32,499 nt of DNA from positions 1 to 32,499 of IMG/VR virus record IMGVR_UViG_3300042945_002352; one strand, 5' to 3'. This stretch comes from a virus. Below the pieces are notes generated by a model. It was not told the DNA's origin and did not search any database. It was given only the letters and a program-made list of their open reading frames with translations. The position numbers were made by a program, and so were the translations under genes. Below are positions 1,781-27,325 of the stretch, piece by piece. Within the stretch, counting starts at the first letter, position 1, and each line of letters starts with the position of its first letter.

Positions 1781-3070
1781 TTACGCGCCCAGCTTGACGT
1801 TCGCGTTGAAGCCAGGGGCGTTGCACCCAAGCTGCGCGTAGCTGACGACGCGGAGTTCGGCGGCATCGCTGTTGTAGACGCGGAGCATCTCAAGCCCGTC
1901 CGCGTACTTGGCGATGTGCGGCGCCGGCCCCAGCGAGTACAGCTTCCAGGTGTCCATCTGGAGCAGGAACGCCGTCTTGGCCGGGCAGGAGCGGTCCGGG
2001 AACACCTTGATCTGGCCGGCGGCGCCGTTGATCAGGATGCCGGGGTAGTACAGCTTCGCAGGGCCATCGAAGCTGATGTACTGCGCCTTGCTGCCAAGCG
2101 ACTTCTCAAGCGCGGCGTAGCTGGCGAAGTTGGTGATGCACACGTCCGGGTTACCACCCTCGCGAGCCACCAGCAGCGAGCCGTCGATGAGGGCTTCCTC
2201 AATCGACTGCGCCGAGCCGTCGTAGCGCACGCCGCCGAGGCGGGTCGGGTCGACCGAGCGGTCAACACCGAAGAACGCGCTGGAGGTCGGGGTAGTCTGC
2301 GGAACCCAAGCCGACAGACCCTTCAGAGCCAGGCTGTAATCACCCTGGACGTTCAGCGTATCAAGAGCGGACGCTGCCCAGCTACCAAGGCCCGCGCCAG
2401 CAACGCCGCCCATCGAGCCGGACACCTGTACAACGCCGGTGGTGCGGTTCACGGCAACAACGTAAGCCGGGCCACCCGTCCGCAGCGTGCCGGTCGAGGG
2501 GTCGCGGGCCTCCAAGGTCATGTTGACCTCAAAGTTGACCACGTCCGAAGCATTGGTCAGCACGATGTTGCCAAGGGTGCTGGACGCGCCAATAACGCCA
2601 ATCGAGCCCGTGCCGTCGCGGAAGAGCTGCGTGGCAAGGCTGTTGGTCAGGGCGCGGATAGCGCCGTCGATGACCACGGTGGCGCCGTTGATGAACGCCA
2701 TCTTGTCGGTCTTCGACGCCAGCATCGTCTGGTTGTCGATCTGCGCGATGCTGTAGTTCGACGCGCGGGTCAGGGCGAACGACTCAACCGTGGCCGCAGT
2801 CTGGTTGCCCTGCGCCGACGAGAAGGTGGCGCTGCGGCCCTGCGAGGTGTTCACGATGAGGGGGATCGGCATGTACTTGCCGCCGAACTCCTCCATCTTG
2901 GGAACCATCGCCAAGAAGGGGTTGTTCTTGTAGACCAGGTTGGCAATCTTCTGGTCGTCATAAAGCTCCTTGAGCGCCGCGTTGGCAGCGCCAAGGTCGA
3001 ACGAGAACGACGGGCCGCCCGTCTGATTCAGAGCGGGGGTCGGGGGAGTACCGGGTCCGGGCCAAGACAT
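1781..3070 (-). CDS. Major capsid protein
   Basis: This 429-residue protein forms the icosahedral shell. I place the start at the ATG at 3070 (MSWPGPG), preceded by TAGGAAC; an upstream ATG at 3100 has no ribosome site. The first 25 residues are Pro/Gly-rich, followed by LKELYDDQKIANLVYKNNPFL and a region rich in Ser, Thr, Asn and Ala. This N-terminal pattern and the Gly/Asn-rich body are typical of phage capsid subunits that assemble on a separate scaffold. Gene order portal, scaffold, capsid, adaptor supports the call strongly. No protease gene was seen, so shell maturation may proceed without cleavage. Confidence 0.87.
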   Translation of the reverse strand: MSWPGPGTPPTPALNQTGGPSFSFDLGAANAALKELYDDQKIANLVYKNNPFLAMVPKMEEFGGKYMPIPLIVNTSQGRSATFSSAQGNQTAATVESFALTRASNYSIAQIDNQTMLASKTDKMAFINGATVVIDGAIRALTNSLATQLFRDGTGSIGVIGASSTLGNIVLTNASDVVNFEVNMTLEARDPSTGTLRTGGPAYVVAVNRTTGVVQVSGSMGGVAGAGLGSWAASALDTLNVQGDYSLALKGLSAWVPQTTPTSSAFFGVDRSVDPTRLGGVRYDGSAQSIEEALIDGSLLVAREGGNPDVCITNFASYAALEKSLGSKAQYISFDGPAKLYYPGILINGAAGQIKVFPDRSCPAKTAFLLQMDTWKLYSLGPAPHIAKYADGLEMLRVYNSDAAELRVVSYAQLGCNAPGFNANVKLGA

Positions 3071-3191: not shown

Positions 3192-4082
3192 TTACCGACC
3201 CTCTAACCGAGCAAGAGCGGCTGCAACCCGGTCCGCATCAGTACGCGGTCGCTGCGGGCTTCCAGTCGCTGCTGCCGTCAGGTCGTTGCTCAACGTTGGT
3301 CCCGACCTCGGGACGGACGCGGCAACTGGCGCCTGCGGTGAGGCCACACTCTGCTTCGCTGCAAACTTCTTGGTCCGCTGCGCTTGCTGCGCCAGCTCCT
3401 CAAGGTGCTCTTCAACCATCTTGGCGGCCTCTGGAATAGCAAGGACTTTGCCTGATTGATTGAATGCTTCCTCGATAACCTGATACACGAGATTATCGGC
3501 ACCGTAAAGCGCCGTCAACTCGTAAGTTTCAGAATGTTGCTTGACGTATTCCGATACCTCGCCACGGAACTGCTCGATGATTTGCTGCTGCTCCTTGGCG
3601 GCCATCTCCTCGGCAGCGCGGCGTGCAGCCTCGCGCTCCGACTGGGACTGCTTCTTGAACTCCTCAAGTTCCTGCCGAAGCGAAACAACCTCAAGCGACG
3701 GGGTCGGCTTGTTGTCGTTCATCATGTATTCTGTAATCTGCTCGTAGCTTAGGCCCAACGACTTTAGCGCCTCCAGCGGGTTGAGCGCAGCCTGCCGACG
3801 CAAATCTTGGAAAGCCTTGACCTCTTCGGCCTGCCGGGCAATCTCGGCCTGCTGCTGCCGGATGGCCTGCTGCTTTCGGTAGACCTCGGCCTCTTTCCTG
3901 GCCAGCGCCGCAAAACGCTCCGAGTTACGCTCCTTAGGCTGCTCCGGTGCGGGCTCCGCGGCTAGTGGTGCCTCTACGGCGGGCGCCTCTGCGGCAGCGC
4001 CCTGCACCACCTCGGCGGCGGTCGGCATTTGCGGCTGGGTCGCTCCCAGCATCATGTTGGTCGGCATACCTTCAACGCTCAT
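3192..4082 (-). CDS. Capsid scaffolding protein
   Basis: This 296-residue protein starts at an ATG behind AAGGAGT. The first 50 residues are Ala/Pro/Glu-rich and disordered. Residues about 52-100 and 125-185 are long charged helices rich in Glu, Gln, Lys and Arg, predicted coiled coil, and the C-terminus is basic (PRTDADRVAAALARLEGR). A highly charged helical protein encoded between portal and capsid is the standard signature of a phage scaffold, which guides procapsid assembly and then leaves. No protease motif is visible. The call rests on composition and gene order. Confidence 0.85.
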   Translation of the reverse strand: MSVEGMPTNMMLGATQPQMPTAAEVVQGAAAEAPAVEAPLAAEPAPEQPKERNSERFAALARKEAEVYRKQQAIRQQQAEIARQAEEVKAFQDLRRQAALNPLEALKSLGLSYEQITEYMMNDNKPTPSLEVVSLRQELEEFKKQSQSEREAARRAAEEMAAKEQQQIIEQFRGEVSEYVKQHSETYELTALYGADNLVYQVIEEAFNQSGKVLAIPEAAKMVEEHLEELAQQAQRTKKFAAKQSVASPQAPVAASVPRSGPTLSNDLTAAATGSPQRPRTDADRVAAALARLEGR

Positions 4083-4097
4083 TCACTTACTCCTTGG

Positions 4098-5993
4098 TTA
4101 CTGTGCCGGGACATTCGGCACAAGTTCGCTGGCTGGCATAGGCATCGGCGGTGCTAACGGCTCGCCGGTCATTCCGGGTAATACAGGCATTTCGGGAGGC
4201 GGCGGCATCATCGCCTGCTCAAGCTCGGCAATCTGCGCCAGGTAGCGGCGAAGCAACTCCAACCGCTCTTCCTTCAGGTTGTGCAACTTGCCTTTGGCGT
4301 AATACTCAAGGCACAGCTGCTTGGAAAGTTGCAGGTCGTCCAGCGGGTCGGGCGGGGTGTAGTCGCCGTCGTCGACAATCTGGTCGAACACCGACGTCAA
4401 GTAATCCTCTTCGGCGTTCGCCAGCGACTCGACCTGCTCCAGGTCCGGGAAGTCCAGCAGACGACGTGCTTGGCGAGGTGACAGGAAGCCGGCCTGTGCG
4501 TACTCTTGAATGGTAGCGAGGCGGCCCGCCGGGTCTGTCGGAAGCGACGACACCGGGTAGCATTGCATGACGTAGTCGTCCTGCGAGAGGTTGATGTCGC
4601 CCCACGACACCCGCGACAGCGACTTGCGGCCGGGAACGCGGACCTCGTAGTCCTTTTCCTCGGAGGCGATGCCCTTGGCAATCTCAATGGAAAGCCGGGC
4701 AACGTCCATGAACATGTTCTCGTACGACTTGGCAGGCGTATGCAGACGGTCCGTCTGAATGTCGGCAAACTCACGGATGGCGCGACCGGAGTTCAAGCCC
4801 TCCGGCTTGAGGCTGGAGGCCGACAGCTGCGACACGCCGGCCTGCTCGTAGCCCTTGTTGATCAGGTTCTGAAGGTGCGCGAACACCTCGGGCGCGACCG
4901 GCGACGGCGTGACGTAAGCCGGCGGTGTGCCGGTGTAGTTTACGATGGCGCCAATCTCGTTGTTTAGGTGCTCTTTGACAATCTTGCTGCCGTTCTCGAT
5001 GAACACCTTGAAGCTGCCCATCATGTGGAACGACCGCTGAATCACCCAAAGCAGCTTGTTGATTTCCAGCTGAATGTTCTGAAGCTGCTCGGCAAGACCC
5101 TGGCCCCAATAGCCGTAGAGGCGCGGCGCCCATTGACAACGAGCAAACGGAAACCATTGGTGCGGCCACGGCTCCATCTTGCCGAGGATGGCTCCATCAA
5201 TAGTAATGACGTGCTTCCCGTCGTCAGCACCAGGACCGCTGGGCAGGTGCCACGACTCGCGCACCGTCAGCATGTCTGCCACGATGCTGCGTCCCGCCTC
5301 TTCGGTGCGACTCGGCTTTGCGCCGGCAATCTTGGCGGCATCGTCCGGGAACATATCGAACAACACCTGGCGGTCGACCTGTTTGACCCGGTGCATCTGC
5401 CGAGGCTGACCGTACAGCGCCTCGACGTCGTCTACGAAAATCTCCGACGACATGACACGCTCGTGACAGACGCGGTCACCCTTGGCGAACACATGAATGA
5501 AGCCGTCGCCCCACACCGCCGCATCCCGGAACACGGTAGTGCCCAGTTCGTGGGTGCTGTTCTCGTAGAACACGCCCTCCAGGAAGGCGTTTAGCTTCTT
5601 GGCTTCGCGCTGCTTCTTGTAGTCGCCGCCGCTGGTCAGGAATAACGGCTTGGGGCGATTGCGGGTAATCTTCGCCACCACCGTATCAACCACGCTCTGC
5701 ACCAGGTTGTAGCTGATGCGGTCGCGTAACGCCGGCTGCTGCGCGGCCAGCTTGCTAAACGACACACCAGCCAGGGTGGTGGGCGACAGGTTGCCATACA
5801 GACGAGAGGAGACAATCCATTGGGTGGCGCGAAACGACTGCGCGTCACGAATCAGATTCAGCGTCCCGCTGATGACGTCGGCGGCATCTTGGCCGTCGAG
5901 CATCCACCAACGCCGCTCTTTGTTGTCCGGTAGCTTGTCGGGAACGCCGCTGCGCTCGCCACCGATGGTAAAATCCCGAAACTCAATGGGCAT
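4098..5993 (-). CDS. Portal protein
   Basis: This 631-residue protein forms the dodecameric ring at one capsid vertex through which DNA is packaged and ejected. Features include an aromatic, charged N-terminal section, WGDGFIHVF near residue 162, a helical segment around EQLQNIQLEINKLLWVIQR that matches the channel-lining region of large portals, GYEQAGVSQLSASSLKP, and a Pro/Met-rich tail (PPPPEMPVLPG). Length is typical of large podovirus-like portals. It overlaps the preceding small gene by 11 bases and is followed by the scaffold gene, the usual head order. Confidence 0.88.
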   Translation of the reverse strand: MPIEFRDFTIGGERSGVPDKLPDNKERRWWMLDGQDAADVISGTLNLIRDAQSFRATQWIVSSRLYGNLSPTTLAGVSFSKLAAQQPALRDRISYNLVQSVVDTVVAKITRNRPKPLFLTSGGDYKKQREAKKLNAFLEGVFYENSTHELGTTVFRDAAVWGDGFIHVFAKGDRVCHERVMSSEIFVDDVEALYGQPRQMHRVKQVDRQVLFDMFPDDAAKIAGAKPSRTEEAGRSIVADMLTVRESWHLPSGPGADDGKHVITIDGAILGKMEPWPHQWFPFARCQWAPRLYGYWGQGLAEQLQNIQLEINKLLWVIQRSFHMMGSFKVFIENGSKIVKEHLNNEIGAIVNYTGTPPAYVTPSPVAPEVFAHLQNLINKGYEQAGVSQLSASSLKPEGLNSGRAIREFADIQTDRLHTPAKSYENMFMDVARLSIEIAKGIASEEKDYEVRVPGRKSLSRVSWGDINLSQDDYVMQCYPVSSLPTDPAGRLATIQEYAQAGFLSPRQARRLLDFPDLEQVESLANAEEDYLTSVFDQIVDDGDYTPPDPLDDLQLSKQLCLEYYAKGKLHNLKEERLELLRRYLAQIAELEQAMMPPPPEMPVLPGMTGEPLAPPMPMPASELVPNVPAQ

Positions 5994-11361: not shown

Positions 11362-11395
11362 TTTATGTTGACATCCGCCAGAGCATGAGTAGACT
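11362..11395 (+). promoter_or_regulatory. Rightward early promoter P1 with shared upstream motif
   Basis: Consensus TTGACA (11,368-11,373) is followed after 16 bases by TAGACT (11,390-11,395). It is embedded in TTTATGTTGACATC (11,362-11,375), a 14-mer that recurs inverted at 21,130-21,143 and partly at 21,179-21,189. It would drive the small-gene cluster from 11,477, with a leader of about 75 bases. Confidence 0.72.
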
Positions 11396-11448
11396 GCGCC
11401 TCACCTCGACGGATGAGGGTTGGCACGACGCTAGCAAAGACCATCACC

Positions 11449-11463
11449 GCCGCACGACGCGGC
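11449..11463 (+). repeat. Start-associated hairpin before the 11,477 gene
   Basis: GCCGC-ACGAC-GCGGC forms a perfect 5-bp stem with a 5-base loop starting in A, followed immediately by ACGGAGACTGACAATG. It belongs to a family of hairpins placed just before ribosome sites in this phage. Confidence 0.65.
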
Positions 11464-11476
11464 ACGGAGACTGACA

Positions 11477-11680
11477 ATGACTGACTTGACCTGGACCGCA
11501 CGACTCCCTGAGATGAGCAAAGTTCTGACGTCCGAGGTGGAAGAGCTAGATGCACGACTCCTCGCCATGGAGGCAAAGTTGACCGAAATGCGCCGGCAGC
11601 GGGAAGCAGCAGCGGCACGGCTCGTGCAGAAAATTGAGTCGTGCTGGACGTCGGCCGAAATTGCGCAAGCGCGGGGATAG
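11477..11680 (+). CDS. Small coiled-coil protein, first gene of the early cluster
   Basis: This protein has 67 residues. The ATG has GGAG at good spacing. Residues about 14-50 form a charged heptad-like helix rich in Glu, Arg, Leu and Ala, likely a coiled coil and probably an oligomer. It is the first product of promoter P1, so it is made early after infection. No family recognised. Small helical early proteins often act against host factors, but nothing here shows that. Confidence 0.65.
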   Translation: MTDLTWTARLPEMSKVLTSEVEELDARLLAMEAKLTEMRRQREAAAARLVQKIESCWTSAEIAQARG

Positions 11681-11696
11681 TCGAGCCTTTGGCGGA

Positions 11697-11745
11697 GGAG
11701 CCGGCGACGTCGGCTCCCTCTCCGAATGTTCGACGCCAGGAGGCG
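11697..11745 (+). repeat. Two hairpins in the leader of the 11,750 gene
   Basis: The first (11,697-11,717) pairs GGAGCC with GGCTCC, extended inside to about 9 bp. The second (11,734-11,745) is CGCC-AGGA-GGCG and places the AGGAGG ribosome site in its loop and 3' arm, so it could hide the site from ribosomes. Confidence 0.5.
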
Positions 11746-11749
11746 AAAC

Positions 11750-11905
11750 ATGAGCGCACAACAAAAGCTAATGAACTGGGCAATAGCCACCGGAGGGGTG
11801 TTTTCCTTCCTCATGGGCGCCGGGCAGGCGGGCGCATCCCTTCCCTTCGCAGCGGCCAGCCTGACGCTGCTCATGTACTCCCTGGAGATGAACAATGAGG
11901 TATGA
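11750..11905 (+). CDS. Small membrane protein (51 residues)
   Basis: The ATG follows AGGAGG. After a short polar start (MSAQQKLMNW) residues 11-43 are hydrophobic and Gly/Ala-rich, enough for one or two membrane spans, and the end is acidic (EMNNEV). It is too short to recognise. Early phage membrane proteins of this size often bind host envelope proteins; that is general knowledge, not evidence. Confidence 0.6.
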   Translation: MSAQQKLMNWAIATGGVFSFLMGAGQAGASLPFAAASLTLLMYSLEMNNEV

Positions 11906-12023
11906 AGTGTGGAGCCTGCGAGGAGTCTGCCACGGCGTCTATGGCACGCTAATTGAAGCACAGAGACAAGCAGACTGGTTGCGTTCGTTCGACGTAACCG
12001 TTGCAATACTTGCAAAACAGTAA
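11895..12023 (+). CDS. Small protein (42 residues) overlapping its upstream neighbour
   Basis: The ATG at 11,895 lies inside the end of the preceding gene, with CTGGAG seven bases before it. The sequence MRYEVWSLRGVCHGVYGTL then a helical EAQRQADWLRSF is compact, with a hydrophobic C-terminus. It looks like a small folded domain. No family recognised. Confidence 0.55.
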   Translation: MRYEVWSLRGVCHGVYGTLIEAQRQADWLRSFDVTVAILAKQ

Positions 12024-12025
12024 CA

Positions 12026-12061
12026 GCCGCATGACGCGGCCGTAATGCCCCAGCGAGGGGC
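12026..12061 (+). repeat. Tandem start-associated hairpins before ardA-like gene
   Basis: GCCGC-AUGAC-GCGGC (12,026-12,040) and GCCCC-AGCGA-GGGGC (12,047-12,061) each form a perfect 5-bp stem with a 5-base loop beginning in A. The second abuts the GAGGAG ribosome site. Confidence 0.65.
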
Positions 12062-12074
12062 GAGGAGCACGACC

Positions 12075-12557
12075 ATGAGCATGCATTCTTTCCGGATCTA
12101 CGTTGCACCCTACTCCGACACCTGCGGCGGCCGATGGCTGGACATCGACGGAGACGACGTCGAGGCGGCCGTCAACGCCATTAGCCGCGACGGCACCCTG
12201 GAGGTTGGCGCCTTCGACCATGAGGGCTTCAACGGCATCCGCACCAAAAGCGTTTCAGAGCTAACGGAACTTGCTCAGGCTGCTCTGGCATCCCAGGACG
12301 CGGAGGCCTTTATTGCCTACGTTTCACACACCGGCCAGGATGCGGCCTCAGCCGAAGGCGAGTTTGACGACGCCTACTGTGGACGCTGGGGTGACGAAGA
12401 GGCCTTTGCCGCCGACCTGGCGGATGAGGTAATAGATATCCCGGAGCGCATCCGTCCGTATTTTGACGACGAGAAATTTGCCCGAGACCTGTTCCTAAGC
12501 GATTACTTCTCAGAGCGCAGCAAGAATGGTGACATCTTCGTCTTCCGGCACGTCTAG
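12075..12557 (+). CDS. ardA: ArdA-type antirestriction protein
   Basis: This is a 160-residue acidic protein. The ATG at 12,075 has GAGGAG in front and gives the usual family start (SFRIYVAPYSD). ArdA proteins mimic bent B-form DNA and occupy the DNA-binding groove of type I restriction enzymes, protecting incoming DNA. Typical features seen are the N-terminal beta strand IYV, GGRWLDIDG, many spread Asp and Glu, the central AFIAYVSHTGQD, and the C-terminal FARDLFLSDYF and GDIFVFRHV. The length fits the family (about 160-180). It is the only gene of the early cluster with a clear function and suggests that the cluster counters host defence. Confidence 0.85.
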   Translation: MSMHSFRIYVAPYSDTCGGRWLDIDGDDVEAAVNAISRDGTLEVGAFDHEGFNGIRTKSVSELTELAQAALASQDAEAFIAYVSHTGQDAASAEGEFDDAYCGRWGDEEAFAADLADEVIDIPERIRPYFDDEKFARDLFLSDYFSERSKNGDIFVFRHV

Positions 12558-12569
12558 CTAGAGCCCCCA

Positions 12570-12634
12570 ACGGAGGGGCTGGGAAACCGGCCCTTCCGTC
12601 GGACGCTTCAGTCCGAGCGGCGCCAGTGGGGCGC
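12570..12634 (+). ncRNA. Three-hairpin structured leader, copy 1
   Basis: Hairpin 1 (12,570-12,599) has 13 bp closed by a GAAA tetraloop. Hairpin 2 (12,601-12,614) is GGAC-GCUUCA-GUCC. Hairpin 3 (12,620-12,634) is GCGCC-AGUGG-GGCGC, followed at once by AGGAG and an ATG. The same order recurs at 12,940-12,999 with compensatory changes. It is likely a cis-acting mRNA element acting on translation or mRNA stability. Confidence 0.7.
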
Positions 12635-12646
12635 AGGAGAATGACA

Positions 12647-12931
12647 ATGACGCTAGAGACCCTCAAGGCGAACAACGCACGGGCTGGACACCTTTTTTTT
12701 TCGCCAGACACGATGCGCTTCTTCCGCTCGCGCATATCCTCCCGAATCTACCAGGCGGCCAGCGGTGCTATCTACATCGTCACCAGCGAGCAGGCCCCCC
12801 GAAGTCCGCGCCGATACAGCGTGCGCATCACAACGGATGACGGCGTGACCTTCGACACCGTTGACGGACCGGGCGCGTATAGCACGTCGAGGGCTGCTCA
12901 CGCGCGGGCCAAACATTTGGCGTCCAGCTAG
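12647..12931 (+). CDS. Conserved phage protein (94 residues)
   Basis: Two ATGs lie six bases apart; the second (12,647) has AGGAG at the right distance. The pattern FFSPDTMRFFRSRISSRIYQ, then GAIYIVTSEQ, PRRYSVRI and a C-terminal SRAAHARAKH resembles a small protein found in many unrelated phages next to early genes, whose function I do not know. It is basic, with alternating beta strands. It is expressed behind a structured leader. Confidence 0.72.
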   Translation: MTLETLKANNARAGHLFFSPDTMRFFRSRISSRIYQAASGAIYIVTSEQAPRSPRRYSVRITTDDGVTFDTVDGPGAYSTSRAAHARAKHLASS

Positions 12932-12939
12932 AGCTTCCG

Positions 12940-12999
12940 TCGCAGCGGCCGGGCCACCGGCCGTTGCAGCGGGCGCTTCAGCCCACCGCGCCCTTGGGC
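12940..12999 (+). ncRNA. Three-hairpin structured leader, copy 2
   Basis: Hairpin 1 (12,940-12,965) has 11 bp with a GCCA loop. Hairpin 2 (12,969-12,982) is GGGC-GCUUCA-GCCC, with the same loop as copy 1 and an A-U to G-C swap in its third pair. Hairpin 3 (12,986-12,999) is GCGCC-CUUG-GGCGC. A TGGAG ribosome site and ATG follow. The flanking AGCTAGAGC, holding the upstream stop codon, is also shared with copy 1. Confidence 0.7.
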
Positions 13000-13013
13000 G
13001 CAATGGAGACACC

Positions 13014-13205
13014 ATGTTCTTGCACATCGAAAAATCAGCCTTCCGTCACGGGGAGTATACGGCACTGGCCGATGGCGTCCGTTGGCGCATCATCCGATGC
13101 GACGACTACTGGCGCGCCGTTGCCACCGACGGCCGCTATATGTCCGAGTCCTCCCTCCGTGTCATCGATAGCCGGCTTTCGCGCCTACAAGCGGAGGGCG
13201 TCTGA
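13014..13205 (+). CDS. Small basic protein (63 residues)
   Basis: The ATG has TGGAG upstream and a structured leader before that. The sequence has alternating strands (YTALADGVRWRIIRCDDYWRAV) and a helical end (SLRVIDSRLSRLQAEGV). No family recognised. Confidence 0.6.
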   Translation: MFLHIEKSAFRHGEYTALADGVRWRIIRCDDYWRAVATDGRYMSESSLRVIDSRLSRLQAEGV

Positions 13206-13324
13206 TGACTACCCACGCCGCAATTATGCACCTTCTCATCCTCGGCATCGGCGCCGTGCCGGTCCTATGGACGCTGAACCTAGAGCGCGGAAAAGCCCGA
13301 TACGACGACGAAAGCGCCGAGTAA
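13205..13324 (+). CDS. Single-span membrane peptide (39 residues)
   Basis: The ATG overlaps the previous stop (TGATG) with GGAGG ahead, so it is coupled. Residues 5-25 (AAIMHLLILGIGAVPVLWTL) form one membrane segment, followed by a charged tail (ERGKARYDDESAE). The function cannot be told. Confidence 0.55.
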   Translation: MTTHAAIMHLLILGIGAVPVLWTLNLERGKARYDDESAE

Positions 13325-13338
13325 GCCCCACCCGTAGT

Positions 13339-13353
13339 GCGCCAGTGAGGCGC
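13339..13353 (+). repeat. Start-associated hairpin before the 13,365 gene
   Basis: GCGCC-AGUGA-GGCGC abuts GGAGACTGACAATG. The start context is identical to that of the 11,477 gene, and the stem is identical to hairpin 3 of both structured leaders. Confidence 0.65.
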
Positions 13354-13364
13354 GGAGACTGACA

Positions 13365-13640
13365 ATGAAAAAAATAAATCAATATCGACTGGTTGGCTGG
13401 GCCACCTTCGGCAAGAACCGAAAGGCAAAGCACTACTCGTTCACGCTATGCGAGACGGAAGCATCACTTGAAGCCGATGCCGAACAGCTCTTGAATCTCT
13501 CGCGCAATGCCATCGCGTCCGACAAAGTAAGGACCGATGGCGTGATGGCTGTCATGCGTTATGACGTGGAGCGAAGGAGTGATGGAATCGACATCATACA
13601 AGGCTTCGCGCGCGCCCCTGTTCTGGTGGTGACGCCGTGA
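13365..13640 (+). CDS. Hypothetical protein (91 residues)
   Basis: The ATG has GGAG and a hairpin upstream. The order strand (YRLVGWATF), charged turn, FTLCETEASLEADAEQLLNL helix, then VMAVMRYDVERR and a Val-rich end suggests a small alpha/beta domain. No family recognised. It is followed by a GTGA overlap to the next gene. Confidence 0.62.
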   Translation: MKKINQYRLVGWATFGKNRKAKHYSFTLCETEASLEADAEQLLNLSRNAIASDKVRTDGVMAVMRYDVERRSDGIDIIQGFARAPVLVVTP

Positions 13641-13798
13641 CGCCGCGCACCCTAGTCCACCTCGCCTGGCTCTACCGGCAGGCGTCCCAGCACCGTTGCG
13701 AAGTCGAAGGCGACGGCGCAACCTGCGAAGCGTGCCAGCTCCTTGAAGAATCTAGGCTACGACGCGCGCGGGTGAAGCGCGCAATGGAAACAGCATGA
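13637..13798 (+). CDS. Small Cys-containing helical protein (53 residues)
   Basis: It starts with GTG overlapping the previous stop (GTGA). A helical start (LVHLAWLYRQASQHRCEVE) is followed by CEACQLLEESRLRRARVKRA; Cys at 22, 33 and 36 plus nearby His could bind a metal. Its end contains a 6-bp hairpin (13,764-13,782) that precedes the next start. Confidence 0.5.
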   Translation: MTPRTLVHLAWLYRQASQHRCEVEGDGATCEACQLLEESRLRRARVKRAMETA

Positions 13799-13941
13799 CA
13801 CCCATCGAACAGGCCCTTTATCTCTATCTCGTCGCACCCGTCGTTCGGGACTGCGGACCCCTTTCACCGGAGGCTGAGCTAGCCCTTGGTGCATGGACGA
13901 AGATAGTCGAGACGCTGCCAAAGGAAACGCAGGGCAACTAA
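13795..13941 (+). CDS. Last small gene of the early cluster (48 residues)
   Basis: It overlaps the upstream stop as ATGA. A hydrophobic helix-like start (IEQALYLYLVAPVVRDC) and a second helix (AELALGAWTKIVETL) are visible. It lies just before the terminator. No family recognised. Confidence 0.5.
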   Translation: MTPIEQALYLYLVAPVVRDCGPLSPEAELALGAWTKIVETLPKETQGN

Positions 13942-14132
13942 CGACCAGCCGAAAACGAAACGCGCGCCTCGGGGCCATCCTGGGGCGCGTTTTTCATGGC
14001 CGAATGAAAACACCAGTAAATACAGCCAGATACGCTTGCTCTATTTATATAGTAACCATCAGCGCAAACAATAGCCCACAGATAAATATCTGACGCTGAG
14101 AGTGTATTTTTTATCGTTTTACTTCTATTCAT
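13938..14132 (-). CDS. Doubtful AT-rich leftward ORF (64 residues)
   Basis: The ATG at 14,132 has TGGAG at good spacing, and the protein (starting MNRSKTIKNTLSASDIYLW) has an ordinary composition with a hydrophobic centre. However, it converges on the early cluster and its 3' end runs through the terminator hairpin. Base composition is much more AT-rich than the neighbours, so if real it is probably a recent acquisition. Confidence 0.28.
   Translation of the reverse strand: MNRSKTIKNTLSASDIYLWAIVCADGYYINRASVSGCIYWCFHSAMKNAPQDGPEARVSFSAGR
13958..13994. terminator. Terminator of the early cluster, possibly bidirectional
   Basis: AAACGCGC at 13,958-13,965 pairs with GCGCGTTT at 13,985-13,992, and the transcript continues into a U-run on the plus strand. 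Read leftward, the stem is followed by TTTCGTTTTC, so it may stop both directions. Confidence 0.7.
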
Positions 14133-14368: not shown

Positions 14369-14785
14369 CTAGTCGCGCGTCCTGACACGTTCCAGCAGTA
14401 TCGCGACCCGTTCAGCACGTTGTTCCGGTGACAAGCCGTCCGTTTTCACGGTAATCCGGTCTTCCAATAACCCCAAGTGCTTTGCCAGTAGCTCCAAAGC
14501 GCGAACTTTCGTGCCCTGCGCGACGTCATCTTGCTCCGCAACCCTTCGCAATTCGTTAATAACAAATTGCGCATCAACCTCCGCTCTTTTTGTCGTCGCC
14601 AACGATTTTTCGGCAATCTTATCAGCCACGGCGGGAACCGCGAGCATGGCCGAACCGCGTGCTGAGGCGGTTTTCTCGGAATAACCAATTGCGATGCCTG
14701 CCTTTTTCGCGTCCCTTGTCGCGAGAAAAGCATCGACAAATTTAGTTTGCCTTTCTGTCAATCCGCCCTTGCCAAATTTTGCCAT
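14369..14785 (-). CDS. terS: Terminase small subunit
   Basis: This protein has 138 residues. The ATG at 14,785 has AGGAGG about 11 bases upstream; a longer frame to 14,911 runs back across the intergenic gap into the upstream gene. The N-terminus GLTERQTKFVDAFLATRDAKKAGIAIGYSEKTA is the helix-turn-helix DNA-binding domain typical of the Terminase_2 family, followed by a helical oligomerisation region and a charged C-terminus that would contact the large subunit. It recognises the packaging site. It is unusual that it lies about 6 kb from terL and in the middle operon; leftward transcription past 14,369 would cross the AT-rich region and run antisense to the early cluster. Confidence 0.9.
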   Translation of the reverse strand: MAKFGKGGLTERQTKFVDAFLATRDAKKAGIAIGYSEKTASARGSAMLAVPAVADKIAEKSLATTKRAEVDAQFVINELRRVAEQDDVAQGTKVRALELLAKHLGLLEDRITVKTDGLSPEQRAERVAILLERVRTRD

Positions 14786-14831
14786 TTTGACAAAGCCTCC
14801 TGTCGCTGCGTTCCAGCCATGACGCGCCGCG

Positions 14832-15083
14832 TTATTCCAGCGTGATGACCTCGACGTTGGCGTAAGGTATGATGTACTTCCCGCCACCGTCGACGGGCTC
14901 AAAGCACACACCGGCCGGGTGAATGGCGATGCTCTCGCAAATAATCATCCCGCCCGATGCGATAGCAGTCGCCGTCTTGTCCGTGCTCAACGCCGAGATA
15001 ATGCGAGCCCCGCCGAAATGTACCCCGCCGGTGCGAACGCGGACGTGCTTGACGGACTGCGTTGCTTTCGTTTCGTTTGCCAT
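14832..15083 (-). CDS. Hypothetical protein (83 residues)
   Basis: The ATG has AGAAGG about ten bases upstream, in a leader very like that of terS (both read GTCAAAATGGCAAA). The protein is Gly/Ala/Ile-rich with predicted strands and ends with YIIPYANVEVITLE. Function unknown. Confidence 0.65.
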   Translation of the reverse strand: MANETKATQSVKHVRVRTGGVHFGGARIISALSTDKTATAIASGGMIICESIAIHPAGVCFEPVDGGGKYIIPYANVEVITLE

Positions 15084-15128
15084 TTTGACATTGCCTTCTG
15101 GCGCATTTTGCGCCGGTAGTTGTAGCGT

Positions 15129-19191: not shown

Positions 19192-20202
19192 TCACAGCCA
19201 CGAATCCAGGTCGCCGGCCTTCGGGTCATCCCAGTTCCGGTTAGGGTGTGTTGTAGCGGCTTCCTTCCTCCACCTTGCAAGACCCTTGTTGATGCCGTCG
19301 TCGGACAGGAAGTAGCCGATGCCTGCCGTGCGGGCGAAGGCGTCGTTCTGGAATCCCTCGACGGCCCGCATGAGCTGGTCGATCCCCCTCGCCTTCCGCT
19401 GCTGGGCGAAGCGGATGAAGTGGTCTTTGTTGGCAACCATCTCCTCCGGTTTGGCACCGGACAGCGAGCGCACCGCCGAAAGCCAACGCTCGCGGTCCTC
19501 AACTATCCCCGGTTCGCTGCTTTCGGGCTTCGATGGCCGTCCCTTTTTAGCCTTCCCCTCGACGGCCGCGCTTGGAGCGGAAGCGAAAAGCGCAAGGTTC
19601 TTAGTACTTATTTCTTTCTCTCTTTCTCTCTCTCTCTCTGTGCGTGATGTGTGACGGGAGCGTGACGGGAGCGTGACGCATTCCAAGTGCCCTATTTCAG
19701 GCTGTTTCTCGACAACTAAGGGCTCCGCGTCACGCTGTGCGTCACGGTCATCTGCGTGACGTGGTGCGTGACGAGAGCGTGACGGTAGCGTGACGGTAGC
19801 GTGACGGTCCGTGACGCTGCGTGACGCAGACTTGCGGGCGCGGTATTTGGCCGAGCGAAGCGCCGACTGGTTCCTCTTCTTCTGCTCGTCGGTCAGCCCT
19901 TGTGCGATGTGGAGCGATGCGACCACCTCCGACCAGGATAAAATCGTCACCTCGTCACCGTCCAGATTCAGCCAGCCCGTGGAATGGAGGGCATCAAAAA
20001 ACCGCTGGTCATCGCCATGCCAGAACGCCGCCCTGGCAAAGGCGTGCGGAGCCATGTCGGACGGGTGTGTGCTGCCGTGCTGGGCGGCCCACTCCCAGAG
20101 GTCAAGCAGGTAGACGCGGGCGTCACGCTCACCCAGCGCCTTCGCAAGTGCGATGACCGCCGGCGCATCCCGCCAACTCAGGGGAACCTTTTGCCAGTAC
20201 AT
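19192..20202 (-). CDS. Replication initiator protein containing the origin
   Basis: This protein has 336 residues (ATG 20,202, in TGATG with the upstream stop). The N-terminal 110 residues (YWQKVPLSWRD, VYLLDLWEWAAQHG, FFDALHSTGWL) look like a winged-helix DNA-binding domain of phage replication proteins. Residues about 120-205 are a low-complexity Arg/Ser/His/Glu linker encoded by DNA repeats. The C-terminal part (EDRERWLSAVRSLSG, HFIRFAQQRKARGIDQL, IGYFLSDDGINKGL) is helical and may bind the helicase loader. This resembles the lambda O layout: DNA binding, iterons inside the gene, partner-binding tail. Confidence 0.75.
   Translation of the reverse strand: MYWQKVPLSWRDAPAVIALAKALGERDARVYLLDLWEWAAQHGSTHPSDMAPHAFARAAFWHGDDQRFFDALHSTGWLNLDGDEVTILSWSEVVASLHIAQGLTDEQKKRNQSALRSAKYRARKSASRSVTDRHATVTLPSRSRHAPRHADDRDAQRDAEPLVVEKQPEIGHLECVTLPSRSRHTSRTEREREREKEISTKNLALFASAPSAAVEGKAKKGRPSKPESSEPGIVEDRERWLSAVRSLSGAKPEEMVANKDHFIRFAQQRKARGIDQLMRAVEGFQNDAFARTAGIGYFLSDDGINKGLARWRKEAATTHPNRNWDDPKAGDLDSWL
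19611..19830. other. Probable replication origin: iterons and pyrimidine tract
   Basis: Inside the initiator gene, the pentamer GTGAC (mostly as GCGTGACGG) occurs at 19,651, 19,662 and 19,673, then at 19,756, 19,768, 19,779, 19,790, 19,801, 19,811 and 19,821. Two inverted copies (GTCAC) lie at 19,729 and 19,741. Spacings are 10-12 bases, one per helical turn. A 29-base pure pyrimidine tract (19,611-19,639) after an AT-rich stretch adjoins the array and may be the unwinding element. The spacing is not a multiple of three, so the repetition is at DNA rather than protein level. Confidence 0.75.
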
Positions 20203-21249: not shown

Positions 21250-21381
21250 ATGGATAAGCGAGCGGTGGCGGTGAAGGTCCTGGAGACGGTAAAGGCGGCA
21301 CGGGTGATGTTCGCAGACCAGCCGGAGACGCTGCGGAAGCTGGACGAGGTCGAGAGAGACGCGATGGAGATGCTCAAGTAG
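21250..21381 (+). CDS. Small helical protein (43 residues)
   Basis: The ATG follows AGGGAG with good spacing. It has two amphipathic helices (VAVKVLETVKAARVMF, and ETLRKLDEVERDAMEML). It is the first gene of the rightward recombination operon, right next to the operator. No family recognised; a regulatory or host-directed role is possible. Confidence 0.58.
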   Translation: MDKRAVAVKVLETVKAARVMFADQPETLRKLDEVERDAMEMLK

Positions 21382-21392
21382 GCAAACCGGGA

Positions 21393-21434
21393 TGGGGCGG
21401 GAAACCGCCCCACCTAAACGTCGCATAAAGCGAC
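21393..21434 (+). ncRNA. Two-hairpin structured leader before the ERF gene
   Basis: TGGGGCGG-GAAA-CCGCCCCA (21,393-21,412) is an 8-bp stem with the same GAAA loop as leader copy 1. GTCGC-ATAAA-GCGAC (21,420-21,434) follows, then a weak GAGAGAAT before the ATG at 21,448. Confidence 0.62.
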
Positions 21435-21447
21435 AGAGAGAATGTAG

Positions 21448-22095: not shown

Positions 22096-23231
22096 TGCGC
22101 GTCACCGGCTCATCCCTTCCCCTGCTCCGCTCCTGTCAATGGTGGGCGCGTCCCGAAATCCAGTCGCCTGAGTTTGTGCCGACCGAGGCCATGATGCTTG
22201 GCACCGAGGTGCACGGGGCCATCGAGGCCATACTGGCCGAGAGCGATGCCCCGCCGGTTATCTCCGACGAGGCCAGCGAGTACCTCAAGGCGTGGGCCGC
22301 CTGGTGGCAGAAGGCGCCCTTGGGTACGGCACGCTGGCAGCCGGAGGTGGCGTTTGCCTACGACCCGGCAACCGATAAGGCGGTCCGACTGGAGACCACC
22401 GGACGCAACTACACGGCGGCTCAGGAGGGCGAGATTGCCGGCACGGTCGACGCGGTCGGCCTGTTTGGTGACCGTGCGGTGGTGGTCGACTGGAAGACCG
22501 GCCAAGACTTCGCCGGCCTGACCGCCGACGCACGGGACAACTGGCAACTGCGGCTCTATGCGCTGTGCGTCAGCCGTTACCACAAGGTCGACACCGTCGA
22601 GGTGGTCATCGCCCGCATCACACCGGACGGCGTCAGGACTACCCACTACACGCTCGACTCCCTGGAACTCGACGCGGTGGCCGAGGAGGTGCGCGGCCTG
22701 GTCGCGAAGATCGAGAAGTCTGAGCCGCAGCAGGGCACTCATTGTCGACGCTGCCGAGCGGTGTCGGTGTGCCCATCGACCGCCAAGGCGCAGGAGGCGC
22801 TGGTCGCCACGCCGGTATCCCTGACGATCACCAAGGACAACGCCGGCCCGCTGCTCCTGCGGCTTCGCCAGGTCCAGGCGGCGTGCGAACAGGTCGAGGC
22901 GGCGCTGAAGCGGTACGCCATCGAAAATCCGTATGGCATCGAGCTTGGTAATGGAAAGCGGTGGGTACGACAGGCCGTCGACCGGGAGTCCATCAACCTC
23001 AACGGTGCCGAGATGGCGATGGGCCTGGCGGCGCTGGCGGCGATTGACGTAGACGACTGCGTCGAAACCAAGGTGACCGTCACCAAGGCGGCTATCGAGC
23101 GCCGGCTGAAAGAGAAGCGCGGCCTCAAGGGCAAGGAGTTGCGAGACGTCATGGAGTCGCTGCTGTCGGACCTTCGGGCTTCCGGCGTGATGCGAGTGGT
23201 TAGCGTCGACAGCTATCGGGAGGTTGAATGA
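22095..23231 (+). CDS. PD-(D/E)XK nuclease with Cas4/RecB-like iron-sulfur cysteines
   Basis: This protein has 378 residues, and its ATG overlaps the upstream stop by one base. Nuclease motifs are His40 (GTEVHGAIEAIL), Asp119 (AGTVDAVGLF), VVVDWKTG (Asp132, Lys134) and Gln151 with LYA. Cys14 near the start and Cys217, Cys220 and Cys226 (HCRRC then VCP) match the four cysteines of a 4Fe-4S cluster in Cas4/AddB-type exonucleases. The last 150 residues are an extra helical region. It probably resects double-strand ends to give single strands for the ERF protein. Confidence 0.86.
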   Translation: MRVTGSSLPLLRSCQWWARPEIQSPEFVPTEAMMLGTEVHGAIEAILAESDAPPVISDEASEYLKAWAAWWQKAPLGTARWQPEVAFAYDPATDKAVRLETTGRNYTAAQEGEIAGTVDAVGLFGDRAVVVDWKTGQDFAGLTADARDNWQLRLYALCVSRYHKVDTVEVVIARITPDGVRTTHYTLDSLELDAVAEEVRGLVAKIEKSEPQQGTHCRRCRAVSVCPSTAKAQEALVATPVSLTITKDNAGPLLLRLRQVQAACEQVEAALKRYAIENPYGIELGNGKRWVRQAVDRESINLNGAEMAMGLAALAAIDVDDCVETKVTVTKAAIERRLKEKRGLKGKELRDVMESLLSDLRASGVMRVVSVDSYREVE

Positions 23232-23962
23232 GTAACGAAGAGAAACTGCGGGCGCTGCTCGCGGAAGTACGCCGCTGGATGATTCACGGCGACAGGGGCG
23301 CGATGTTTTTGCATGATTTACAGACCCGCATCGACGCCGCGCTCGCGGAGCCGGCGGGTGGGTGCGACCGATGCGAAACGCTGCGTGACCTCGCGGACAA
23401 GGCGGCGTGGGTGCAGGGTGACGCGCAGCGGCGCATGATAAAGGCGCAGCAGGAACGCGACGAAGCGCGGGCTGCGCTGGAGAAGGAAAAGGCCGCGCAC
23501 CGGCTTGAGAGAGAGGCTCACGACCGCCGGTTTGACCGCGAAACCAAGTGCATGAAAGAGCGCGACGAAGCGCGGGCCGAGATCGAGCGGCTGCGCGGCA
23601 CTACGCCGGAACTGCCTCCGCGTCCGCCCGATGGCTCGGGCTTGCCGCGCTATGGGTTGCGATGGAACGGTCCGACCGAGCCGGTAGCGGTCCCGATGCT
23701 CGACGGCTACTGGACGCCGTGGCACTTGGCCGACGCTGAAACACAGAGATTTGAGATTGAGCGCAAGCACACGGGGCGTGCGTTGGATGAGGCCGTCGCG
23801 CTTCAGAAGGCTGCGTGCGCTGCGGCCTACCAACGCGGCGCGGAAGCGATGCGCGAGGCGGCGGCAAAATACTTTGATGACGGGTTAGCTGATGGCGGAA
23901 TTCCTGGCCCAAGCATCTACGGCATCCAGATGAGACAACTGCCGCTGCCGGAGGACAAATGA
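23228..23962 (+). CDS. Coiled-coil phage protein, paralogue of the 26,906 gene
   Basis: This 244-residue protein is coupled by ATGA. The N-terminus (EEKLRALLAEVR, then RIDAALAEP) and the C-terminus (RGAEAMREAAAKY ... LPLPEDK) match the ends of the 139-residue product at 26,906. The middle differs: a long Glu/Arg-rich coiled coil (about 75-125) and a CDRCETL motif, then a Pro/Gly-rich part. Function unknown; the shared ends may bind a common partner. Confidence 0.75.
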   Translation: MSNEEKLRALLAEVRRWMIHGDRGAMFLHDLQTRIDAALAEPAGGCDRCETLRDLADKAAWVQGDAQRRMIKAQQERDEARAALEKEKAAHRLEREAHDRRFDRETKCMKERDEARAEIERLRGTTPELPPRPPDGSGLPRYGLRWNGPTEPVAVPMLDGYWTPWHLADAETQRFEIERKHTGRALDEAVALQKAACAAAYQRGAEAMREAAAKYFDDGLADGGIPGPSIYGIQMRQLPLPEDK

Positions 23963-26457: not shown

Positions 26458-26909
26458 CCTGCGCCATGACCGGCTGCGCAAGGCGGCTGGCGACATGGAA
26501 CCGCTCCGGCTTGTGCGCCAAGCACAACCACTACAGCGGGGCGTGCTCCTGCGGAAAGCGCATCAGCTACGAGCGCGAAAGCTGCAACGACTGCTTTAAG
26601 GCGCGGCGGGCGGCCAACAGGACGCGGAACCCGTGCAGGTGTGGACGAATGACCAGAGACAAAGGCGGAGTGTGTCGACCGTGTCGAACGCTGGTGGGCG
26701 AGCAGGCGGCACCCCAAGAGAGCAGCGGTCCGGCGGTCTGGGATTTGGTGATTGGCGACATGAAGGCCCGAAACGCCGAGGGGCGCCGAAAGTACGGCGT
26801 ACCGTTGCGGCCATTCAACGGGCGCGACGTGTTGATTGATGCCTACCAGGAGGCACTAGACTTGGCCGTCTACCTGAGAACCGCCATCTACGAGAGGGAC
26901 GGACGATGA
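26454..26909 (+). CDS. Zinc-finger protein fused to a MazG-like C-terminal region
   Basis: This 151-residue protein is coupled by ATGA. Residues 1-80 hold several Cys motifs: CAMTGC, NRSGLCAKH, CSCGKR, CNDC, CRCGR and CRPCR. Residues about 97-150 (IGDMKARNAEGRRKYGVPLR, FNGRDVLIDAYQEALDLAVYL) resemble a helical phage domain often described as MazG-like nucleotide pyrophosphohydrolase, with spaced Asp and Glu. That assignment is from remembered pattern and is tentative. If right, it might change nucleotide pools. Confidence 0.65.
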   Translation: MTCAMTGCARRLATWNRSGLCAKHNHYSGACSCGKRISYERESCNDCFKARRAANRTRNPCRCGRMTRDKGGVCRPCRTLVGEQAAPQESSGPAVWDLVIGDMKARNAEGRRKYGVPLRPFNGRDVLIDAYQEALDLAVYLRTAIYERDGR

Positions 26910-27325
26910 CTGAAAACGAAAAACTGCGGGCGCTACTCGCGGAGGCACGGGTCATCACGCAAGACTCGCTGGACTCCAACACGACAGGGTTTGAGGCCGA
27001 CAACGAGGTCTGCAAGTGCAACGCTTGTGAGCGGTACCGGAGCATCATCGCCCGCATCGACGCCGCGCTCGCGGAGCCGGTGGACGACTACGACATCGAC
27101 GCCGACCTCCGGCAACACAAGGAGGACCGACTGCGCCTTCGGGCCGAGAATATGCGGCTGACCAGGGAGGCTGTGGGGGCATTCAAGGCGGGCGCAGAGG
27201 CGATGCGCGAAAAGGCGGCCGACTACATCAAGAACAACATCGTCGGTGACCAGGCGTCGATGATTCTCGCCGCCAAGGTTTACGAAAAAGAAATCCGCGC
27301 CCTGCCGATACCGGAGGATGAGTGA
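26906..27325 (+). CDS. Paralogue of the 23,228 gene (139 residues)
   Basis: It is coupled by ATGA. Its N-terminus (ENEKLRALLAEAR, RIDAALAEP) and C-terminus (AGAEAMREKAADY ... LPIPEDE) match the 244-residue product at 23,228; the central coiled coil is shorter and a CKCNACERY motif is present. Function unknown. The pair shows domain-end conservation with an exchanged centre. Confidence 0.72.
   Translation: MTENEKLRALLAEARVITQDSLDSNTTGFEADNEVCKCNACERYRSIIARIDAALAEPVDDYDIDADLRQHKEDRLRLRAENMRLTREAVGAFKAGAEAMREKAADYIKNNIVGDQASMILAAKVYEKEIRALPIPEDE

Follow-up and report, generated by a model that had tools for sequence, protein, structure and literature searches.

The early operon of this phage carries, in the gaps between consecutive genes, a repeated leader that is best explained as a conserved, structured intercistronic mRNA element of ~80–95 nt, reused along the polycistronic early transcript. 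We analyzed a 32.5-kb virus record, a linear fragment (hereafter the window), and found at least 23 distinct copies of the leader at ≥22 bits in 14 related phages, all on the early strand. That the leader has an RNA structure is near certain from the pattern of sequence change among copies, and position, strand, and covariation together suggest that it works at the mRNA level, where one cistron meets the next. Position and covariation likewise point to the cis-regulatory role that the initial annotation of this DNA had proposed.

The early region of the window (11.4–14.0 kb, + strand) holds ~10 small genes, with a promoter-like TTGACA-16-TAGACT in front of them (11368–11395, +) and a terminator-like hairpin with a T tail closing the operon (13962–13990, +). 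The consensus scans behind these two sites returned one promoter match against 1.0 expected by chance and three terminator matches against 2.5 expected, so the reading of the region as a single operon, which rests on sites at chance-level frequency, is putative; a similar TTGACA occurs at the equivalent position in the relatives L008 and L012. Three genes frame the two leaders: an ArdA-family antirestriction gene (12075–12557, +; Pfam PF07275, E = 1.3e-17; phrog_2059, E = 1.6e-21), whose TAG stop opens leader 1; a DUF7447 gene of 94 aa (12647–12931, +; PF24239, E = 4.7e-20), whose TAG stop falls inside leader 2 and whose homologue in L022 is likewise flanked by two leaders; and a gene of 63 aa without assigned function (13014–13205, +), for whose product a protein search found no relatives. 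No terminator-like T-run hairpin was seen on the + strand in either leader, only that at 13962–13990 being found, and the promoter-like scan gave no match inside the leaders.

Structurally, each leader comprises a flank and three hairpins (h1–h3) followed by the Shine–Dalgarno (SD) sequence, as determined from hairpin anatomy, a direct repeat, covariance models, pair counts, and folding against shuffles. Leader 1 (12560–12639, +) has its flank at 12560–12569, h1 with a GAAA loop at 12570–12582/12587–12599, h2 with the loop GCUUCA at 12601–12604/12611–12614, and h3 at 12620–12624/12630–12634, flush with the AGGAG of the SD (12635–12639). Leader 2 (12930–13006, +) follows the same plan, with the flank at 12930–12939, h1 at 12940–12952/12957–12969, h2 with the loop GCUUCA at 12971–12974/12981–12984, h3 at 12988–12992/12997–13001, and the SD at 13004–13008. 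The two form a 64-nt direct repeat of 75% identity (12551–12614 vs. 12921–12984), between whose copies four base pairs are altered on both sides with pairing kept (in h1, two G-C to C-G and one A-U to U.G; in h2, one A-U to G-C), one pair is altered on one side only and still pairs, and one outer h1 pair is lost (C.A). Both leaders fold better than 200 of 200 dinucleotide shuffles (z = −3.6 and −4.7). The order and spacing of three hairpins before the genes at 12647 and 13014, the compensatory change in h2 with its loop unchanged, and the shared flank had all been described in the initial annotation, and all hold, with the double-sided changes in h1 as an addition and the direct repeat beginning upstream of h1. 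A description as three independent hairpins is nonetheless incomplete, since h2 competes with an extended form of h1.

Relatives were gathered via the terminase (47 viral loci, most at 72–100% identity); the early proteins, unlike the terminase, had almost no detectable relatives, and the early strands of the gathered phages carry the same leader in front of other genes. When three successive hairpins leading up to an SD were sought without any model, the leader sites ranked highest. Because MAFFT alignments set h3 or h1 out of register in some of the rows, covariance model R1 was seeded with four sequences and extended iteratively, and it recovered further copies absent from its seed at E-values of 2e-5 and better, which, like all covariance-model E-values here, are rough owing to a short calibration. 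Model R2, built from ten sequences, enlarged the copy set. The contigs with copies are all uncultured and mostly partial, and one of them, L128, is a phage contig that was binned with an Actinomycetales genome and bears two copies. The covariance search of related phages, named in the initial annotation as a test that could refute its reading, did not refute it, returning many more copies and massive compensatory change. The duplication described there is borne out as well, since in most phages with enough sequence each operon has two or three strong copies. All copies lie in early operons before unrelated genes.

Positionally, all copies sit between the stop codon of one gene and the SD of the next. 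The model starts 0–6 nt after the upstream stop in nearly every copy (one subtype, with an extra hairpin in between, starts ~25 nt after it), and its end coincides with the SD, a short distance before the start codon. Of 20 scored copies, 18 have TAG as the upstream stop, as compared to 29% for long ORFs of the group, an enrichment whose p value is indicative only because the copies are related.

Evolutionarily, the pairing of the leader is kept while its letters change. Across 18 aligned copies and 22 base pairs, 93.9% of cells are paired, vs. 63% in shuffles and 40–48% with a slid structure; 21 of the 22 pairs show changes on both sides, and double-change cells number 101 vs. 33.6 in shuffles. 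This alignment was fitted to the model and leans toward it, and the copies are related, so that the counted cells exceed the number of independent compensatory events, which is perhaps five or six for each variable pair; compensations are also present where related copies are aligned pairwise by sequence alone. Hairpin h3 is paired in 100% of cells and has the loop NGNRA in 16 of 18 copies while its stem letters vary, the h2 loop nearly always starts with GC, and neither the loop nor the stem letters of h1 are conserved among copies. With one regularly mismatched position set aside, G.U pairs outnumber A.C by 25 to 2, and therefore it is the sense (mRNA) strand that folds.

When copies were folded singly, the flank after the stop codon proved complementary to the 5′ arm of h2. 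Over the 18 copies this alternative helix is 79% paired with 20 double-change cells, a level reached in 0 of 500 shuffles, and slid versions are 26–54% paired. Alignment columns 8, 56, and 75 (flank, h2 5′ arm, and h2 3′ arm) change together as C-G-C, T-A-T, G-T-A, and G-C-G; three T-A rows whose pairing is seemingly lost in the h2 column do pair, as judged by eye, once read in their own register. Since h2 and the h1 extension each covary through the shared 5′ arm of h2, both are under selection, and they are mutually exclusive. The resulting long hairpin (h1*) spans 17–26 bp (median 22.5, shortest at 17–19 bp in a few copies) with single mismatches and excludes h2, with a predicted stability advantage of ~10.8 kcal/mol over h1 plus h2. 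In leader 2 it would cover 12927–12982 (+; 23 bp with single mismatches, from the minimum-energy fold and the flank–h2 covariation), taking in the upstream stop codon, the h2 5′ arm, and the h2 loop. The leader thus looks built to fold in two ways, as h1 plus h2 or as h1*, with h3 (5 bp, loop NGNRA) flush with the SD in both predicted folds.

Weaker leader-like sites in the window are placed more by anatomy than by score. Before the ERF gene, where the initial annotation had seen a similar GAAA-capped stem and short hairpin, both elements are present in a leader at 21379–21439 (+) that comprises a TAG stop, the GAAA-capped stem (21393–21412), and an SD-flush hairpin (21420–21434), with no h2; its fold is strong (z = −5.5), R2 gives only 11.7 bits, and at E = 0.81 homology is not established, making it only suggestive as a further copy. 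A related leader before the gene at 11750 (11678–11749, +) takes the long-hairpin form only, directly after a TAG stop, as an imperfect stem of 7, 5, and 12 bp split by single mismatches or a bulge, followed by a second hairpin, CGCC-AGGA-GGCG, with the SD in its loop (z = −4.4); here too the score (10 bits, E = 1.7) does not establish homology. The ArdA gene is preceded by a partial leader of two 5-bp hairpins, the second flush with GAGGAG (12005–12066, +; R2 21.1 bits, E = 0.015), and the gene at 13365 by an h3-type hairpin only, GCGCC-AGTGA-GGCGC, flush with its SD (13339–13353, +; R2 21.5 bits, E = 0.013 over 13275–13358). Of 39 gene starts, counted over the two strands, 16 have a short, SD-flush, GC-rich hairpin that ends 9–18 nt before the start codon, compared to 4.0 expected from shuffles; among them are the starts at 11477, 12075, 13365, 13795, 21250, and 25001 (+) and at 3070, 4082, 15083, and 19175 (−). 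Hairpin h3 may therefore be a general habit of this phage’s start sites, onto which h1 and h2 were added.

Several other features of the window were recorded in passing. A different three-hairpin leader precedes the late gene at 3070 (2969–3070, −) and is also found in the close relative L007 near 5414. Tandem GAGCGTGACGG-type repeats at 19632–19806, near a DnaC-like helicase loader gene, are possibly replication iterons; two genes with several diverged segments at 78–86% identity (23228–23962 and 26906–27325) are apparently a duplicated gene; and 29-nt repeats of 86% identity (14778–14806 and 15076–15104) lie over the start regions of two leftward genes.

Beyond the terminase-related phages, 45 loci of more distant phages (573 kb), which serve as a negative control, gave no significant covariance-model match, and among 35 of their records searched whole, L128 alone was significant. 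In 466 bacterial genomes of two orders, in which candidates were partly scored, no match reached E = 0.001 except in the source MAG of L128, and an exact DNA pattern for h2 plus h3 run over all viral contigs returned two matches, both chance occurrences in coding DNA. Small early proteins used as queries led to two distant ArdA loci, both without the leader. In a further sample of 66 loci chosen for a DUF7227 gene, L139 repeats already known copies, and L185, which has no related terminase, contains a leader-like two-hairpin intercistronic region directly after its DUF7227 gene (3646–3724 and 4373–4436; 22.5 bits, E = 0.10, and 18.7 bits), which is only a lead, a whole-record search of L185 having given no match. 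With Rfam 15, no family exceeded its gathering threshold in the window (the best sub-threshold match over 11400–14000 was a chance miRNA model, E = 1.4), and eight relatives gave no match apart from tRNAs; a tRNA gene lies just downstream of the terminase in L017 (6646–6717) and L020 (6304–6375), and none is present in the window. Literature searches, which mostly covered work outside subscription, found no description of the element.

Among known systems, the RNase III sites R1–R5 of phage T7 are likewise intercistronic hairpins in a polycistronic early transcript, and the T7 early operon carries an antirestriction gene, Ocr, as the operon here carries ArdA. We know of no such bistability in the T7 sites, and the leaders differ from them in conserving a competing hairpin and an SD-flush hairpin. 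Other hairpins of early phage transcripts, paired or single, are the put sites of phage HK022 and the nut sites of lambda, unlike which the leaders occur in several copies per operon, each between a stop codon and an SD; neither an antitermination protein nor a conserved boxA-like sequence was noticed with the leaders. Lambdoid boundary sequences are conserved short intergenic segments between exchangeable genes, whereas the leaders conserve an RNA fold rather than letters. In T7, RNase III cuts the early transcript down to mono- and dicistronic messages (PMC4858673), and an equivalent cleavage of the leaders is a prediction. Cluster EG and cluster O phages have inverted repeats of 18 and 17 bp, respectively, ahead of starts in short gaps between genes (PMC7302621, PMC4351075), which in contrast to the leaders are fixed-sequence and probably protein-binding DNA repeats, those of cluster O also occurring inside genes.

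The nearest described elements are the SAS/ESAS repeats of cluster K mycobacteriophages and cluster EF Microbacterium phages, which stand just upstream of the start codons of many unrelated non-structural genes and consist of a start-proximal part with or without an upstream inverted-repeat part (PMC3203893, PMC7302621). The leaders resemble them in placement and in repetition before several unrelated non-structural genes. However, SAS is a 13-mer of fixed sequence that includes the SD, and the leaders vary in sequence and keep their pairing, whereas the authors of the ESAS work found little support for hairpins in mRNA, as changes there fail to preserve pairing (PMC3203893). The two 13-mers tested at the SD, GGGATAGGAGCCC (cluster K) and GGGAAAGGACCCC (EF), had five and eight matches in the window at ≤3 mismatches vs. 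9.5 and 11.5 expected, none of them at the SD of leader 1 or 2, and R2 found nothing significant in the right arms of TM4, Adephagia, AnnaSerena, and Hyperion (best E = 0.68). Given these chance-level matches, the R2 search, and the preserved pairing, we reject membership of the leaders in SAS/ESAS.

Mechanistically, we tentatively posit that the leader is a portable intercistronic RNA cassette whose most likely role is ribosome-gated processing or insulation, a reading to which we give slightly less than even weight. In the absence of a ribosome at the upstream stop codon, the long hairpin would form and present a double-stranded processing or insulation site of the RNase III type, like those between T7 early genes, with h3 remaining as a protective, initiation-proximal hairpin of the downstream cistron and part of its start site. 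A ribosome arriving at the stop would melt the base of the long hairpin and let h2 form, which would couple processing to translation of the upstream gene. An RNase III site of this type would call for a double-stranded stem of about two helical turns; the predicted long hairpin spans 17–26 bp with mismatches and competes with h1 plus h2. The more specific version, in which a bistable cassette senses ribosomes finishing the preceding gene and, by insulating or processing each cistron, enables free gene swaps, is possible, and we hold it with more reserve.

The mutually exclusive helices, the nearly fixed position of the stop codon, and a toggling flank that coincides with the ribosome footprint downstream of the stop would also suit a translational coupling switch, in which a terminating ribosome refolds the leader and thereby exposes or hides the next ribosome site, in the manner of erm/cat attenuators. 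We consider such a switch unlikely, in that h3 forms in both states in most copies and masking of the flank, expected to open a sequestered SD, did not consistently change its predicted accessibility (mean 0.40 vs. 0.43; of 23 copies, up in five and down in three). Nor is an SD-opening role of the leader supported, predicted accessibility being not significantly different from that of shuffled leaders (0.55 vs. 0.49, p = 0.14). As neither computed prediction of a simple translational switch held, processing or insulation remains the best reading. Somewhat less likely still is a site for an RNA-binding protein of phage or host, serving either as a translational operator or, like put and nut, to act on RNA polymerase, with h3 as the recognized part: an always paired h3 with its NGNRA pentaloop and variable stem, together with the nearly constant GC of the h2 loop, would fit, but put and nut sites occur once, near the promoter, as opposed to two to four SD-flush copies per operon here, and the h1 loop and stem letters vary. 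We find it improbable that the leaders are recombination joints akin to boundary sequences, retained for exchange of early genes by homologous recombination; near-identical leaders flanked by unrelated genes do occur (L034/L032 and L025/L022), but selection for identity would leave the compensatory change, the sense-strand G.U bias, and the SD-flush position unexplained, leaders of one genome are only 62–75% identical, and gene exchange is more readily explained as a result of the repeat than as the reason for it. DNA-level operator or promoter repeats, as the ESAS authors proposed for cluster K mycobacteriophages, would account for inverted repeats upstream of start codons and are strongly disfavored by the compensatory change, the excess of G.U over A.C, and the lack of promoter-like matches in the leaders.

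Whichever its activity, the leader marks places where neighboring genes differ between phages. The L034/L032 leaders are 92% identical and the L025/L022 leaders 91% identical, and the 200 nt on either side of them fall to the 50% baseline of unrelated DNA; the genes around leaders encode ArdA, DUF7447, GP88, and DUF7227 proteins, along with many small products without assigned function. Near-identical leaders between unrelated genes indicate that genes were exchanged at leaders, or that leaders were copied between junctions. The term ‘mobile’ in the initial annotation is thus apt only in the sense that near-identical leaders stand between different genes. For start-associated repeats of the kind known from mycobacteriophages and Microbacterium phages, the leaders provide an RNA structure supported by covariation. 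Early operons hold many small host-takeover and counter-defense genes that are often swapped, and a conserved connector reaching from stop codon to ribosome site would be a direct, testable answer to how newcomers are promptly expressed from a polycistronic transcript. A cassette with its own stop codon and ribosome site would let small early genes be swapped while leaving their neighbors undisturbed.
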